From assembly GCF_017656495.1 (NCBI RefSeq), contig NZ_JACDNS010000016.1, positions 1 through 48,153 of the forward strand: DNA of 48,153 nt. Direction: 5' to 3'. This DNA comes from Thermococcus sp. (GTDB taxonomy: Archaea > Methanobacteriota_B > Thermococci > Thermococcales > Thermococcaceae). Both the position numbers and the translations under genes were made by a program. The notes under the pieces were generated by a model. The model searched no databases. It had not been told where the DNA came from and saw only the letters and a list, made by a program, of their open reading frames with translations. This document shows, piece by piece, positions 6,166-12,152 of this stretch (positions are counted from its first letter, which is position 1; every line of letters begins with the position of its first letter).

Positions 6166-6972
6166 TTACAACACCTTTGAACGCTTTTTTATGCTCAATA
6201 TCTTTTTTGCAAGTGCTTCTACATCTCCATATATTGGAGAATCCTTTGAAATGGCATCAACGCCTTTTCCTTCGTTATCCGCATGAATTACGCTCTCATC
6301 AAAGTTTACAAGATGATAAGGCGTTGAATCCGAGAAGACCTTTGCATAAAGTTGGGAAGCTTTTAAGGAGTTACGGACCTTATTTATTACGAGGAATATG
6401 TTTGGTATGTTAAGTTGTTTCCCCATTTCTATGAGCTTTCTTGCTATCATTAGGGACTTCAGGGTTGGCTCTGCTACACATATCATGACATCAAATTTCT
6501 CTGCCAGTCCACGTCCAAATACTTCTGCCCCTGCTTCGCTGTCCACAATTACAATATCCTTTTCAGATAGCAGAACATGCATCAAAAAAGCCCTTGCAAG
6601 AGCTAACGCTGGGCATAGACAGCCTTCTTTGCTTTGCTCTATGCTCCCAACAACGACAAGCTTTAAATTTGGCTTTATTGTTATACCGTATTGCTCAGCC
6701 AAATCATCAACTTTTGGAGTTAGTGAGAATAAAACTCCCCAGCCCTCACCGGGTCTTGCTCCGGTCCTTTCCTCTGCAAGCTTTTCATTTCGTGAAAGTG
6801 GAACAATTTCTAAAGCTTCCTCGAATGGAATTCCCAGACTTTGAGCAAGGTTGGGAACTGAATCTGTGTCCAAAGCTAGTATGTTATACCCTTTGTCGGC
6901 CAAGATATGGGCTAATAAAGCTGAAATTGTAGTTTTCCCAACTCCTCCCTTTCCAGCAACGAGTATCTTCAT
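6166..6972 (-). CDS. cooC: CooC, CODH nickel-insertion ATPase
   Basis: 268 residues, MinD/ParA-type P-loop ATPase. It has a deviant Walker A motif GKGGVGKTT at residues 7-15 and a Walker B-like IVIVDSEAGAE. A CLC pair in SKEGCLCPALALAR, at about 117-119, corresponds to the CxC that binds metal at the CooC dimer interface. It is known to drive ATP-dependent assembly of the Ni-Fe-S C-cluster of CODH. It lies 75 bp downstream of cooS and abuts cooT, forming the maturation module of the operon. Confidence 0.93.
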   Translation of the reverse strand: MKILVAGKGGVGKTTISALLAHILADKGYNILALDTDSVPNLAQSLGIPFEEALEIVPLSRNEKLAEERTGARPGEGWGVLFSLTPKVDDLAEQYGITIKPNLKLVVVGSIEQSKEGCLCPALALARAFLMHVLLSEKDIVIVDSEAGAEVFGRGLAEKFDVMICVAEPTLKSLMIARKLIEMGKQLNIPNIFLVINKVRNSLKASQLYAKVFSDSTPYHLVNFDESVIHADNEGKGVDAISKDSPIYGDVEALAKKILSIKKRSKVL

Positions 6973-7047: not shown

Positions 7048-8949
7048 TCAAACAGGCCATTTAAGCTTCTTCCTTTTCTCAATTATCACATTGTAAATTG
7101 TCTCTGCTGCTTTTACCGGGTCTGGTTCAACGTAGAACTTTCCTCCAATGAGATCCTCAATGTCATCAGTTAGCAACTTAGTTACTTTCTGGCTTCCGAG
7201 CACTGGTGGAACTACTCCTAAGTGGGTGAATACACCGCTTGCAACGAAGTAGGTTCCAATTGACACTGCTTTTTCGCTCATCCATTCCGGAGCAGAACCA
7301 GCAACTGGTAGGTCTGGAATATCAACACCCAAAGCTTCTGACATTGCAGCAAGTACTATCAGAATTCTCGAACAGTCAACACAGCTTCCCATGTGTAAGC
7401 ATGGTGGGATTCCAAGTGCTTCACATATCGCTTTTAGTCCTGGACCAGCTAATTCGGCAGCCTTTGGTGACATTAAACCTTCCATCGCTGCTGCGATTCC
7501 CCAGCAACCAGTACCAACTACTAGGATGTCTCTCTTTATGAGCTCCTTAGTTAATGTTACATGACTATGATTGTGCTTGACCTTTGGATTATTACATCCA
7601 ACAACTCCAACAATTCCTTTAATTGTACCTTCTCTGAGTGCATTGATGAGAGGTTCAAGGGTTCCTCCAAGAGCTTCGAGAATTGCTTCAACACTGAAAC
7701 CTGCAACAACTTCACTCTTGTGTTTTGGAATGTAAACCCTTTCTTTTGGCCTGTTCTGGAAGTTTTCAATTGCAATCTTGACTATCTCCTTGGCAATCTC
7801 ATCTGCTTTCTCTGGTTTGAACTCTATGTGCACTGCTCCGGGTATGTGGGCCTTGGGCTCGGTTGTGATTATCTTGGTGTGATAACAGCCGGCTACATCA
7901 ATCAATGATGGCATTAAACACTGGTAATCAACAACCATAGCCTCAACTGCTCCAGTAATTATCGCCAGCTCTTGCATCAGGAAGTTTCCAGCTGGAGGAA
8001 TGCCAAGCCTCATTAAAACTTCGTTCCCAGTACAGCACATTCCTGCAACATTTACTCCTTTGGCCCCATATTTTTTGGCCAATTTCTGCATCTCTTCACT
8101 TTGAGCAACCTCGGCTATCTTCATTGACAGTATTGGGTTATGACCGTGGACAATTATATTCACATAATCCTCCTTGAGAACACCCAAGTTTGCAATGGTT
8201 TTAATTGGCTTTGGCGTTCCAAAGAGTATATCACTTAGATAAGTAGCCATCATTGAGCCACTCCATCCATCAGCTAGGGAGGTTCTTACGCCGTGAAGGA
8301 GAAGTGAAGCTGGATCTGCATCAACACCCATATGAGTCCTGTGCATACACTCACAAATTTCCCTGTCAATTGCTCTTGGCATGACTCCGAGCCTTTCCCA
8401 GACTTTAATTCTTTTCTTAGGTGCTGTTGCCATGAGCAACTTCAATGGCTCATCATCGGGCTTTCCAAACTCCCATTCCAAGATGTGTGCAACTTCTAAG
8501 GCTATTTCACTCTCGGTTTTTCCTTCTACATCTATTCCCAAAGCTTGAGCTAACCCCTTAAGCTTCTCAACGTCAGTCAGCTTGTATCCCTTGAACTCCC
8601 CTGTTGCTGCTCCTTTAAACACGTGGACGATATCTCTTGCATGATCGCTGTGTGCTGCTGCTCCTGCAGCAATCATCCTCAAAATGTTTCTTGCAACTAT
8701 TGTGTCAGCATCTGCTCCACAAACACCTTTGGTTGGCCCAGCACCAAATGGGTCAATTCTACATGGACCCATGTTACAGTTTCTACAACAGACTCCCAGA
8801 AGACCAAAGCCACATTGGGGTTGCTGTTCTAAAAAGCGGTGCCAAGCAGTCTTCACACCATTCTCCTCAGCCTTCTCAATTAGGTCAGCAACTCCCTTAG
8901 TTTCAGAAACTTTCTTTGCAAGAACCTTAAACTTTATGTATTCCGCCAT
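7048..8949 (-). CDS. cooS: Anaerobic carbon monoxide dehydrogenase catalytic subunit (monofunctional, CooS)
   Basis: 633 residues, usual length for CooS. The N-terminal cysteine block CGFGLLGVCCRNCNMGPCR (about residues 46-64) holds D- and B-cluster ligands. C-cluster ligands can be followed in order: HGHNPILSMK (His), NVAGMCCTGNE, GVVGCNNPK, VGTGCWGIAAAM and HMGSCVDCSR. It catalyses CO + H2O to CO2 + 2 H+ + 2 e- in the cytoplasm. No acetyl-CoA synthase genes occur nearby, and the neighbours are an electron-transfer ferredoxin and a hydrogenase, so the role is energy conservation from CO rather than carbon fixation. The start at 8949 was chosen for GGTGGT plus 4 nt; an upstream in-frame GTG is part of that ribosome site. 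Confidence 0.96.
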   Translation of the reverse strand: MAEYIKFKVLAKKVSETKGVADLIEKAEENGVKTAWHRFLEQQPQCGFGLLGVCCRNCNMGPCRIDPFGAGPTKGVCGADADTIVARNILRMIAAGAAAHSDHARDIVHVFKGAATGEFKGYKLTDVEKLKGLAQALGIDVEGKTESEIALEVAHILEWEFGKPDDEPLKLLMATAPKKRIKVWERLGVMPRAIDREICECMHRTHMGVDADPASLLLHGVRTSLADGWSGSMMATYLSDILFGTPKPIKTIANLGVLKEDYVNIIVHGHNPILSMKIAEVAQSEEMQKLAKKYGAKGVNVAGMCCTGNEVLMRLGIPPAGNFLMQELAIITGAVEAMVVDYQCLMPSLIDVAGCYHTKIITTEPKAHIPGAVHIEFKPEKADEIAKEIVKIAIENFQNRPKERVYIPKHKSEVVAGFSVEAILEALGGTLEPLINALREGTIKGIVGVVGCNNPKVKHNHSHVTLTKELIKRDILVVGTGCWGIAAAMEGLMSPKAAELAGPGLKAICEALGIPPCLHMGSCVDCSRILIVLAAMSEALGVDIPDLPVAGSAPEWMSEKAVSIGTYFVASGVFTHLGVVPPVLGSQKVTKLLTDDIEDLIGGKFYVEPDPVKAAETIYNVIIEKRKKLKWPV

Positions 8950-8959
8950 CATAACCACC

Positions 8960-9595
8960 TCAATACCACTTAACCTCTAAGTAGGCTGTATAAACATCCA
9001 TCGGGCTGACTTTCTCTTCCTTTTTCTTTTCTTCAATAACTGGCTCCATGTATACAATGCCTGGAACTTTCAAGCCCGAAATTAGTTCTTCTGCTCTTTC
9101 TTTTCTAATCTCATCAAGAATTTCTTCAAGGGTTCCGAACTTCAATGCCTTGGTGGGGCAAGCTTCTACACATGCCGGCTCTCTGCCTTCTCTGACCCTC
9201 TCAATGCACGAATCGCACTTTAGAACAACCTTGTATTCTGGTTCATACTTTGGATGTCCAAACGGACATGCCATAACACACATCAAACAACCAATACACT
9301 TATTGGCATTGAGTATTACAAAGCCCTCCTCGCTCTTCTTTATTGCCCCAGTTGGACAGACTTTCATACATGGAGCATCTTCACAGTGCTGACATCTCAG
9401 CGGAACATTGAAGAAATCTGCAACCACGACTTTTAACCTCGGTTTGGGTGTTGGTCTTTCAAAGATTGCTCCGAATAATGTCTTGCTCGTTGAATGTTCT
9501 ACTGCACATGCTATTTCACAAGACCTGCACCCCATGCACTTCTTTGGGTCAATGTAAATTGTTGGTCTCTCTAAACCTGTTTCAAGAAGCGACAT
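8960..9595 (-). CDS. cooF: CooF-like four-cluster ferredoxin, electron acceptor of CODH
   Basis: 211 residues from the ATG at 9595, which follows GAGGTGATAACA; the longer frame beginning at 9664 would read through the promoter. Four cysteine motifs of the DmsB/CooF type are visible: CMGCRSCEIAC, CQHCEDAPCMKVCP, CIGCLMCVMACPFG, and CDSC followed by CVEACPTKAL. It transfers electrons from CooS to the membrane hydrogenase. It is the first structural gene after corR, 10 bp before cooS. A 7-bp inverted repeat occurs just upstream (see the regulatory entry at 9644-9697). Confidence 0.93.
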   Translation of the reverse strand: MSLLETGLERPTIYIDPKKCMGCRSCEIACAVEHSTSKTLFGAIFERPTPKPRLKVVVADFFNVPLRCQHCEDAPCMKVCPTGAIKKSEEGFVILNANKCIGCLMCVMACPFGHPKYEPEYKVVLKCDSCIERVREGREPACVEACPTKALKFGTLEEILDEIRKERAEELISGLKVPGIVYMEPVIEEKKKEEKVSPMDVYTAYLEVKWY

Positions 9596-9643
9596 TGTTA
9601 TCACCTCAAAATTTAGGTAAACAAAGGAGATTAATAAGCAAAC

Positions 9644-9697
9644 CGTGTTCGGCAAACAACTCAAAAACTTCTTAATTTATTCATGCACAAGAACACG
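9644..9697 (-). promoter_or_regulatory. Inverted repeat in the corR-cooF intergenic region, candidate CorR operator
   Basis: Two perfect 7-bp arms, CGTGTTC at 9644-9650 and GAACACG at 9691-9697, are centred 47 bp apart, inside the 104 bp between the corR stop and the cooF ATG. The inner arm sits in CCGAACACGG (minus strand), flanked on both sides by GTTTGC. Paired half-sites at this distance would suit a dimeric LysR/ModE-type activator controlling cooFSCT. The arms are seen directly; the binding role is inference. Confidence 0.4.
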
Positions 9698-9699
9698 TT

Positions 9700-10812
9700 T
9701 TAGTACTCATAAAGTGATACTATTGCTTTTTCTCTTATTTCCCTGTACTCTCGCAAAAGATCTTTAGCAAAATCTGTCAGAATTGTTATTCCCTTTTTCC
9801 TTCCTCCTCTGACGGATATTATCAAAGAAATACCCAGCTTTTCTTCAAGACTCTTTATTTTTTCCCAGTACGTTGATGGAGAAACCCCGAGAGCTTTACA
9901 TGCAGCTCTAAAGGAATTAACTTGAGAGATTAACTCCAAAAGCTCTAAAATTTCCCCAGGAATTTCAACACCCTCTTTTGTCACAAATGAGACTCGTATT
10001 TTGGGGGAGAGTCCAATAACATTTCGATTTATTGCACATGGTGAAAAGAGCATTTTTCTTAGATCTTCCCTAGTTATTTTTCTATAGTTCACTTCAAATC
10101 TTGAAAGTGGACATTTTGAGAAATTTCCATAGGGATTTAAGTACAGAGTTTTACAATTCTCAGCACTTGGAGAGGTAAGCAACGTTACTGGATAATTGTC
10201 TATGAAGACCTTAATGGCATTGTAGAAATATTTCCTCCCATAATGAAGACCAATTTCAACGTTTTCTTTCTTCGCGACTTTTTCAAGAAATTTATCCGCA
10301 TATGGGGATGTGTAAAGCTTTGGTCCTAAAGTTATTTTTAATCCATAACTTTTGCACAGCTCAATTATCGAAAGAATTTCAGCGAAGTCAGAGTTGGAAT
10401 CCAACAAAATATATGCCTCAAGATTGTCTATACCTTGAGAGAGAAGCATTTTCACTGTCTGAAGATTTGACTTTATGTCTTTATAGGTGGGGATAATCAG
10501 AGAGATAAAATCAACGTTCTCAAGGGAAGTTTTGTGGAGAAAATTCTTTGAAACAGATATTGGTAGGAAAAGGGTAATTTTTCTGCAGAGCTCCCTGGTT
10601 TGTCTGATTATGATGTCAATCTTTGGATGAAGAAGAGGATTTGGACATGTCAAAAGTCCCTCATCAAATTTAAAATCTTCAAGATGAGAGCTGAGTATTT
10701 CCAATGCCTCAAGAGGGAGCATTATTCCAGCGCAACCAAATTTCTCTTTCCAAGGACATATTAGACAACTACTGTCGCATTTGCTTGAAGGTTGAACTGC
10801 TAAAATGCTCAT
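9700..10812 (-). CDS. corR: CorR-like CO-responsive regulator: radical-SAM/SPASM-like domain fused to ModE/LysR-type HTH
   Basis: 370 residues from the ATG at 10812 (GTGAT plus 4 nt upstream). The C-terminal ~85 residues are a winged HTH of the ModE/LysR type: SFRAACKALGVSPSTYWEKI, then LEEKLGISL and an RGGRKKGITILT wing. The N-terminal ~280 residues resemble a radical SAM fold: a C-x3-C-x2-C motif (CDSSCLIC, Cys 12, 16, 19), a CPNPLLHP segment where such enzymes have GGEPLLHP, and a SPASM-like tail (LYLNPYGNFSKCPLSRF, then SPCAINRN). CorR with CorQ activates CODH genes in T. onnurineus (established); there it is described by its LysR-type DNA-binding domain. An iron-sulfur cluster in this domain is my inference. 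The gene starts 5 nt after the corQ stop, so the two are made together. Confidence 0.85.
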   Translation of the reverse strand: MSILAVQPSSKCDSSCLICPWKEKFGCAGIMLPLEALEILSSHLEDFKFDEGLLTCPNPLLHPKIDIIIRQTRELCRKITLFLPISVSKNFLHKTSLENVDFISLIIPTYKDIKSNLQTVKMLLSQGIDNLEAYILLDSNSDFAEILSIIELCKSYGLKITLGPKLYTSPYADKFLEKVAKKENVEIGLHYGRKYFYNAIKVFIDNYPVTLLTSPSAENCKTLYLNPYGNFSKCPLSRFEVNYRKITREDLRKMLFSPCAINRNVIGLSPKIRVSFVTKEGVEIPGEILELLELISQVNSFRAACKALGVSPSTYWEKIKSLEEKLGISLIISVRGGRKKGITILTDFAKDLLREYREIREKAIVSLYEY

Positions 10813-10817
10813 ATCCA

Positions 10818-11369
10818 TCACTCAAATATTACTTCAAATCCACAGAAGGAGTTGCCAAGTCCCCAGCAGTAGATTTCACGAGTTATGTTCTTTCCGACAA
10901 GCTCTTCCATGACCCCTTGAATAAGCCCGGCTTCAAAGTCACATAGGGTTCTGCCAATAGGAGGTGCCCGGTAGCAACTGATACACTCATATATGTTCAC
11001 TTTCATCTTGCTGAATGACTCATCTACAATATCAAGAAGCCCTATTTTTTGATTTAGAAACACTTTTGGTAGATCATCAATGTCCTTAATTTCACCAGTT
11101 TCTATCAATCTGCGAGCTAGATTATATCCCGCACCTCTCAGAATTAGAGTCCTCAAAGATGGGCTGTATTCAAGCATGCCATACGAAACCATTCTGAATG
11201 TTCTCACGTATTCCCTATCCTCTGGAGAGATTTTCACGAAAAACGGACGTACAACATTGAAGTAATTTTCTGGAGTTAGTCTAATCTCTTCTCTATGTTT
11301 CTTTTTGCTCTTAACCTCCTCTTTATAAATTTCCCTCCACTTTTCTATCAAAACACTAATATCCTCCAT
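10818..11369 (-). CDS. corQ: CorQ-like V4R-domain protein, partner of CorR
   Basis: 183 residues. The C-terminal half is a V4R (4-vinyl reductase) domain with conserved cysteines: YECISCYRAPPIGRTLCDF, then EIYCWGLGNSFCGFEVIF. The N-terminal half is a helical/alpha-beta region without recognised motifs. V4R domains bind small hydrophobic ligands or metal via such cysteines. CorQ is required for CO-dependent growth in T. onnurineus (established). It is first in the transcription order and divergent from sfsA, with a dyad in the shared promoter. ATG 11369 is preferred over 11378 because GGATGG sits at good spacing. Confidence 0.88.
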   Translation of the reverse strand: MEDISVLIEKWREIYKEEVKSKKKHREEIRLTPENYFNVVRPFFVKISPEDREYVRTFRMVSYGMLEYSPSLRTLILRGAGYNLARRLIETGEIKDIDDLPKVFLNQKIGLLDIVDESFSKMKVNIYECISCYRAPPIGRTLCDFEAGLIQGVMEELVGKNITREIYCWGLGNSFCGFEVIFE

Positions 11370-11407
11370 GCTAACCATCCAATGAAATTATTTGCATATA
11401 TCACTTT

Positions 11408-11456: not shown

Positions 11457-12152
11457 ATGATACTCCTAAAGCTTCCTATCATTGAAGGGGAGTTCATTGA
11501 GAGAATAAACAGATTCGTTGGATTGGTCAGAATAAATGGTGAAGTCAAACGAACCCTTATAACAAACACTGGACGCTTAGAGGAATTTATGGTTAAAGGT
11601 AGAAAGTGCTTCTGCATTGCAAAACAAGGAGGAAAAACAGACTTTGTTTTAGTTGCTTTTGAAGATAGAAATTCTAAAGGTGCAGTAATTGATACAAGAA
11701 CTCAAACGAGGGCATTTGAGAGGGCTATCAAGCTTGGATTAATTTCATGGCTGAAAGATTGCTACATTAAAAAGAGGGAAGTCAAAATTGGAGATTCCCG
11801 ATTGGATTACCTTTTGGAGTGTAATGGAGAAGAGATTTGGGTTGAGATAAAGAGCGCTGTTCTCAGGGAAGGGGAATATGCAATGTATCCCGACTGTCCA
11901 AGCTTACGAGGTCAAAAACACATCAGAGAGCTCATAAAACTCCGAGAGCAAGGCAAAAGAACAATGATTGTTTTTATTGGTGCTTTACCAGATGTTAAGA
12001 AGTTTAAGCCTTACATTAAAGGTGATCCAGAAATTGCAAAGCTTTTAAAGGAAGCGAAAGCTAAAGGTGTTGAGATAAAAGCCTTGAGTATATCTCTCTT
12101 ACCCTCAGGAGAAGTTCTTCTTGAGAGGGACAATCTTGAGATTGAAATTTAG
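11457..12152 (+). CDS. sfsA: SfsA family protein (sugar fermentation stimulation protein homologue)
   Basis: 231 residues matching SfsA along its length: FIERINRFVGLVRI near the N-terminus (the nucleic-acid-binding OB-like region), NTGRLEEFMVKGRKC, then the nuclease-like part with EIWVEIKSAVLREGEYAMYP and RGQKHIRELI. SfsA is an old E. coli name; the protein has DNA-binding and PD-(D/E)xK nuclease-like features, and its true role is uncertain. The start has no clear Shine-Dalgarno, but homologues begin at this point, so the mRNA may be nearly leaderless. It is transcribed divergently from corQ. Confidence 0.85.
   Translation: MILLKLPIIEGEFIERINRFVGLVRINGEVKRTLITNTGRLEEFMVKGRKCFCIAKQGGKTDFVLVAFEDRNSKGAVIDTRTQTRAFERAIKLGLISWLKDCYIKKREVKIGDSRLDYLLECNGEEIWVEIKSAVLREGEYAMYPDCPSLRGQKHIRELIKLREQGKRTMIVFIGALPDVKKFKPYIKGDPEIAKLLKEAKAKGVEIKALSISLLPSGEVLLERDNLEIEI

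Follow-up and report, generated by a model that had tools for sequence, protein, structure and literature searches.

A predicted radical-SAM-type fold in CorR, the DNA-binding subunit of an archaeal CO-responsive regulator

The CorQR system raises the question of which of its two proteins senses CO, and by what chemistry. CorQR was identified as the activator of the carbon monoxide dehydrogenase (CODH) gene cluster in Thermococcus onnurineus, where it is reported to be needed for CODH expression in response to CO and for growth on CO (Kim et al. 2015, cited in PMC4791640). In PMC4791640 and PMC6557876, which cite the same study for CorR and CorQ of T. onnurineus NA1, CorR is described solely by its LysR-type DNA-binding domain, with no mention of a radical-SAM-fold domain. 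Earlier authors credited the 4-vinyl reductase (V4R) domain with CO sensing (PMC6557876). It should be noted that the introduction of PMC6557876 swaps the names, giving the LysR domain to CorQ and the 4-vinyl reductase domain to CorR; in its discussion, CO sensing is still assigned to the 4-vinyl reductase domain. The sensor of CorQR has so far been left without an assignment or credited to the V4R part. Here, the corQ-corR locus of a Thermococcales genome of 2.05 Mb was analyzed within a window comprising the whole 48,153-nt stretch of DNA.

The corQ-corR locus and its distribution

The corR reading frame of the window (Table 1) is, as judged by sequence, the orthologue of T. onnurineus CorR, and it lies in the same operon. 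An earlier note on this DNA, made from the nucleotide letters, had placed the start of corR at position 10812. This is the ATG of an invariant methionine, Met4, and to that extent the assignment stood; the open reading frame itself reaches a GTG at 10821, which replaces it as the start. The genes are arranged in the order corQ-corR-cooF-cooS-cooC, followed by antiporter/hydrogenase genes, and the order from corQ to cooC is common to Thermococcales and Korarchaeia. The corQ-corR pair thus adjoins the CODH operon, as in the CorQR CO-responsive system, and the 4-base overlap of the two genes suggests coupled translation. An SfsA-type-looking gene (11457-12152, + strand), divergent to corQ, lies between the CODH cluster and the unrelated genes beyond.

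Table 1. Coordinates of genes, protein domains and sequence motifs of the corQ-corR-cooF region (positions in the window)
Feature	Position	Strand	Basis or remark
cooC-like maturation ATPase gene	6166..6972	-	ORF; conserved order; identified by sequence character
cooS, Ni-CODH catalytic subunit	7048..8958	-	TIGR01702, 790 bits
cooF-like ferredoxin gene	8960..9595	-	TON_1017 orthologue; opens the regulated operon; conserved gene order
TATA-like GCTTATTAAT, putative CODH operon promoter	9630..9639	-	inspection and 16-locus alignment; inferred
CCGAACACG, candidate CorR operator	9644..9652	-	upstream of the cooF TATA-like region
CGTGTTC, distal inverted half-site	9691..9697	-	in part of the loci
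corR	9700..10821	-	373-codon ORF; GTG start at 10821; invariant Met4 ATG at 10812
ModE/LysR-type winged helix-turn-helix, ~residues 286-365	9727..9966	-	PF00126, TIGR00637, ModE structures 2ijl and 1b9m
Predicted radical-SAM-fold (MoaA/Twitch-like) domain, CorR residues 1-265	10027..10821	-	AlphaFold2 and Foldseek, profile-profile alignment, PDB profile search
C223-x13-C237 ... C262	10036..10155	-	presumed auxiliary (Twitch-like) cluster ligands
CPNPLLHP, residues 59-66	10624..10647	-	occupies the radical SAM GGE position; C59 and P60 invariant
CDSSCLIC, C15-x3-C19-x2-C22	10756..10779	-	presumed radical-SAM-type [4Fe-4S] ligands; aligned with MoaA CX3CX2C
corQ	10818..11378	-	V4R-domain protein; 4-base overlap with the corR start

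A full-length CorR orthologue was found in 16 of 115 genomes in the phylum; identity ranges from 53 to 95% across the 16 Thermococcales genomes. More distant orthologues (~25% identity) occur in Korarchaeia. In the genomes examined, CorR accompanies a single type of CODH: the 15 top-scoring cooS matches all came from genomes with CorR, and the sixteenth CorR (genome G085) is located at a contig end. Other cooS genes (e.g. those of G017, G058 and G034, and the second copy in G054) lie in genomes or places without CorR. A contig labelled Thermotogota (JAADCS010000069.1, locus L034) carries a typical Thermococcus-like CorR locus and is probably misbinned. A divergent Korarchaeal CorR paralogue of 345 aa (~27% identity), with all seven of the conserved cysteines described below, was observed at L155:9610-10647 and L158:11691-14803 (G407:C70), downstream of a cluster of cooF-cooS-cooC and membrane-hydrogenase genes; a non-exhaustive look revealed no corQ-like ORF beside it.

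Fold and cysteine sites of CorR

By every method used, the C-terminus of CorR is a ModE/LysR-type winged helix-turn-helix (wHTH). Pfam HTH_1 (LysR; PF00126) matched residues 292-351 above its cut-off, and NCBIfam ModE_repress (TIGR00637) matched at 2e-10, below its cut-off. The wHTH is shared with the ModE/LysR-type regulators, but in CorR the DNA-binding domain is C-terminal, and no molybdate-binding or LysR effector domain was matched by Pfam, the region there being the radical-SAM-fold part. Relatives often encode ModE-like wHTH proteins that stand alone, or ModE-wHTHs joined to other domains (L017-L030, L051-L057), and the radical-SAM fusion of CorR is one of several partnerships of this domain.

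According to the earlier note, a radical-SAM/SPASM-like domain precedes the wHTH. Structure prediction bore this out and refined it to a MoaA/Twitch-like domain. The AlphaFold2 input consisted of 23 CorR-family sequences, including the Korarchaeal ones, and contained no outside radical SAM protein; the resulting model (pLDDT 83.9, pTM 0.69) was compared with solved structures using Foldseek. The best match was MoaA (E 8.5e-11), followed by SuiB, SkfB, BlsE, viperin, HydE, HydG, PqqE and SpeY. Nearly all of the matches were radical SAM proteins; the exceptions were barrels of homocitrate synthase and matches to the ModE/LysR domain. The model thus has the partial TIM barrel of the radical SAM fold, the very similarity on which the earlier proposal had been made to depend. 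In an earlier model, built from 16 close orthologues, the N-terminus was poor (pLDDT 63), and MoaA was already the top PDB match.

Profile comparisons agreed with the model. Alignment of the CorR profile with a profile of Thermococcales MoaA (P 1.6e-6, residues 7-238) brought three motif blocks into register, pairing (i) CX3CX2C with CX3CX2C, (ii) TCPNP with TGGEP, and (iii) C223-x13-C237 with the C-x13-C formed by the last two cysteines of the second, C-terminal cluster of MoaA. The CorR family profile found MoaA among PDB sequences at E 2.4e-4. When 24 radical SAM proteins encoded in this genome and ~316 other ORFs were ranked against the CorR profile, the former took nearly all ranks directly under the CorR homologues, and the top-ranked ORF of the remainder was itself a radical SAM/SPASM protein. 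Searches of PDB and Pfam with single CorR sequences gave no radical SAM match or a sub-threshold one; with Pfam Radical_SAM the CorR of the window scored E 0.01, below threshold, and the best family member 1.4e-7, and NCBIfam gave a weak archaeal MoaA match. With the invariant cysteines described below, the model and the family-profile match to PDB MoaA speak against a chance resemblance. We hold it as practically certain, at the level of a predicted structure, that CorR residues 1-265 adopt a MoaA/Twitch-type radical SAM fold.

Seven cysteines (C15, C19, C22, C59, C223, C237 and C262) are invariant in the 23 CorR proteins, which come from both Thermococcales and Korarchaeia and share as little as ~25% identity. 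The first three form the CX3CX2C cluster motif of the radical SAM superfamily and occur in every homologue whose N-terminus is included, so that the conservation on which the earlier note had staked its claim was observed. The note had given this motif, CDSSCLIC, as residues 12-19, which is true of the short form of the protein and corresponds to 15-22 in the long form. The two further segments that it had pointed out, CPNPLLHP and a SPASM-like stretch, were both present, the latter being LYLNPYGNFSKCP at residues 226-238. Of the SPASM/Twitch signature, C-x8-15-G-x4-C with additional cysteine ligands, CorR has an invariant C223-x8-G-x4-C237 plus C262, and the full SPASM set is absent. CorR has the predicted fold and the Cys-Gly-x4-Cys half-signature in common with SPASM/Twitch proteins (SuiB, SkfB, PqqE, BlsE and SpeY), but differs from them in lacking a substrate context and in the number of auxiliary cysteines, which is only three in Thermococcales and three to four in Korarchaeia; the additional cysteine of most Korarchaeal members is located four residues ahead of C223. 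At either three-/four-cysteine site of CorR, the metal could be zinc instead of an iron-sulfur cluster.

In comparison with MoaA (GTP 3',8-cyclase; PDB 2fb2, 1tv7), the best match by fold and profile, CorR retains the cluster-I motif and the C-x13-C in register, but has lost the GGE and SAM-contact segments, has the extra invariant cysteines C59 and C262, and has gained the wHTH. Each of the 23 CorR proteins has C-P (mostly CP[N/D]P) in place of GGE, the motif for the amino group of SAM. Radical SAM proteins encoded in the genome analyzed here have GGE, GEP or similar at the C59 column, and none of those whose alignment covers it has a cysteine there. In the MoaA alignment, CorR has no equivalent of the segments LSMTTNG, VNVSL and KLNM, nor of the parts of MoaA in contact with the ribose and adenine of SAM, and by inspection of this alignment the ribose and GXIXGXXE motif regions are unrecognizable. 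In Thermococcales, the residue ahead of C22 is I, A, V or N, and the CX3CX-aromatic-C pattern is not found. In several Korarchaeal members the third cysteine is preceded by an aromatic residue (mixed across the group), and traces of the SAM-contact regions, e.g. PGVND, remain in that group.

These features bear on whether CorR still works as a radical SAM enzyme, modifying CorQ, itself or a small molecule, to which DNA binding was added. Such a role would agree with the three cluster-I cysteines, the predicted fold and the retained auxiliary cluster motif, and SAM binding could persist in Korarchaeal CorR, since several members keep the aromatic residue. We nevertheless consider it unlikely in view of the universal C-P, the missing SAM-contact segments and the residues ahead of C22 in Thermococcales. 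The loss of GGE and of the SAM contacts, combined with retention of the cluster ligands, therefore suggests that a non-catalytic iron-sulfur domain is likelier than an enzyme.

CorQ and a conserved promoter motif

CorQ matched the V4R domain (PF02830, 4.6e-13) and MsvR (1e-11), and MJ1460 is also a relative. The five cysteines reported earlier for its C-terminal half are present, but Korarchaeia share only C146, C171 and C179, and the other two are lineage-specific. C146, E168, C171 and C179 are invariant and align with MopR; CorQ thus combines the V4R fold with the C-E-C-C set that corresponds to the zinc ligands of DmpR, Cys151, Glu172, Cys177 and Cys185 (PMC7264223). It differs from the DmpR/MopR sensory domain and MsvR, with which it shares this site, in standing alone, without an ATPase or DNA-binding domain. 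Because the conserved residues match the V4R zinc site, CorQ is likely a zinc-stabilised ligand-binding or partner protein, and the former suggestion that it donates a cluster to CorR was abandoned as improbable, also in view of the two lineage-specific cysteines.

CO, or another small ligand, might instead be sensed in the V4R pocket of CorQ, the radical-SAM-fold part of CorR serving merely as a structural or dimerization platform. V4R is a known ligand-binding domain, the zinc-site residues of CorQ are conserved (PMC7264223), and this is where CO sensing was placed previously (PMC6557876). Against such a division of labor, a pure platform would have no need of seven cysteines kept invariant over ~25% identity, and the divergent CorR paralogue of Korarchaeia has no CorQ-like neighbor as far as was seen. 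Furthermore, the V4R ligands known to us are aromatic compounds, not CO. We regard a sensory CorQ beside a merely structural CorR domain as rather improbable, albeit less so than an enzymatic CorR.

The sequence CCGAACACG is identical in all 16 Thermococcales CorR loci, where it lies between corR and cooF, just upstream of the TATA-like sequence. The window has a single copy (0.06 expected), and the genome has three, of which the remaining two are within ORFs. The arrangement CGTGTTC-N30-55-CGAACACG had one match in the window and none in 100 shuffles. Some loci contain a second inverted half-site, either proximal (TGTTC-N8-GAACA) or distal (CGTGTTC). The corR-cooF interval of four of six Korarchaeal loci contains CGGAA. 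This sequence was seen upstream of cooF in L058 (8700-8760), L061, L062 and L156, and L058 has CGGAACA-N10-TGTTCG, resembling the Thermococcales CCGAACACG element.

Two other assignments of the motif were considered and rejected. The published 36-bp site of the repressor EnfR is present exactly in locus L064, which must therefore be from T. onnurineus or a very close relative. In L064, CCGAACACG spans -56 to -48 from the TON_1017 ATG, and the EnfR footprint (-44 to +3; PMC10570040) begins downstream of it, so CCGAACACG is not the EnfR site. A role in corQ autoregulation was dismissed since no copy occurs upstream of corQ in the loci whose sequence covers that stretch. The conservation and placement of CCGAACACG make it a probable operator, and a site lying ahead of the core promoter is what would be expected for an activator. 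We infer that CorR is the protein that binds it; it could also belong to another factor.

Reading of the CO signal

CooA and RcoM, which like CorQR are CO-dependent activators of CODH operons, are heme proteins. The CorR lineages examined differ in lacking heme synthesis: hemB, which was looked for, is absent from the genome analyzed here, and all heme-synthesis genes are missing from T. onnurineus, other Thermococcus and Pyrococcus species, and Korarchaeum cryptofilum (table in PMC3004389). Heme synthesis is therefore absent in both CorR-bearing lineages, and heme-free CO sensing is needed. The two invariant CP dipeptides of CorR, C59-P60 and C237-P238, could in principle act as heme ligands in a CooA/RcoM-like sensor, with the conserved H65 nearby. 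In addition to the missing pathway, the alignment of the CorR cysteines with the cluster ligands of MoaA speaks against this, and heme-based sensing was rejected as extremely improbable. The earlier idea of an iron-sulfur domain turned into a sensor gained strength from the same absence of heme synthesis (PMC3004389) together with the loss of the GGE and SAM-contact motifs.

The combined explanation that we favor, and regard as reasonably probable, is that CorR is an iron-sulfur-domain activator which acts with CorQ at CCGAACACG and reads the signal at a cluster. The computations establish the domain identity, the conserved cysteines, the lost motifs, the operon setting and the promoter motif. 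In it, CorR would be a transcription activator composed of a MoaA/Twitch-like iron-sulfur domain of radical SAM fold and a ModE/LysR-type wHTH. C15, C19 and C22 would hold a cluster at the radical SAM position, and C223, C237 and C262 an auxiliary cluster. With the SAM-contact motifs lost and Cys59-Pro in place of GGE, most likely no SAM chemistry would take place. Together with its presumably translationally coupled V4R partner CorQ, a putative zinc-site ligand-binding protein, CorR would bind CCGAACACG, immediately ahead of the cooF TATA region, and thereby switch on the CODH operon.

The signal might reach the iron-sulfur cluster in two ways: (i) CO may bind to an iron that is incompletely ligated by cysteine, or (ii) the cluster may be reduced once CO-derived electrons enter ferredoxin. 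Should C59 be the fourth ligand of cluster I, the iron left free would be at the three-cysteine auxiliary site. The auxiliary cluster of HydG handles CO, which provides a precedent for CO on such clusters. Direct binding of CO, already envisaged in the earlier note, to an open cluster iron in a SAM-less radical SAM fold would make CorR a heme-free CO sensor; this is put forward tentatively, as a possibility to which we give less than even weight.

Targeted literature searches for transcription regulators with a radical SAM fold, or for CO sensors without heme, returned nothing relevant. To our knowledge, no experimentally described transcription factor senses its signal through a domain of radical SAM fold. 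With its degenerate radical SAM fold and its two conserved cysteine sites, the DNA-binding subunit offers a concrete, mutable candidate for the sensor, and the conserved promoter motif a likely CorR target. If CO does bind directly, CorR would represent a new class of gas sensors among transcription factors, one that arose from a radical SAM enzyme. CorR would show how an enzyme superfamily converts into regulators, and heme-less archaea may sense CO, or the redox change resulting from it, with iron-sulfur clusters.
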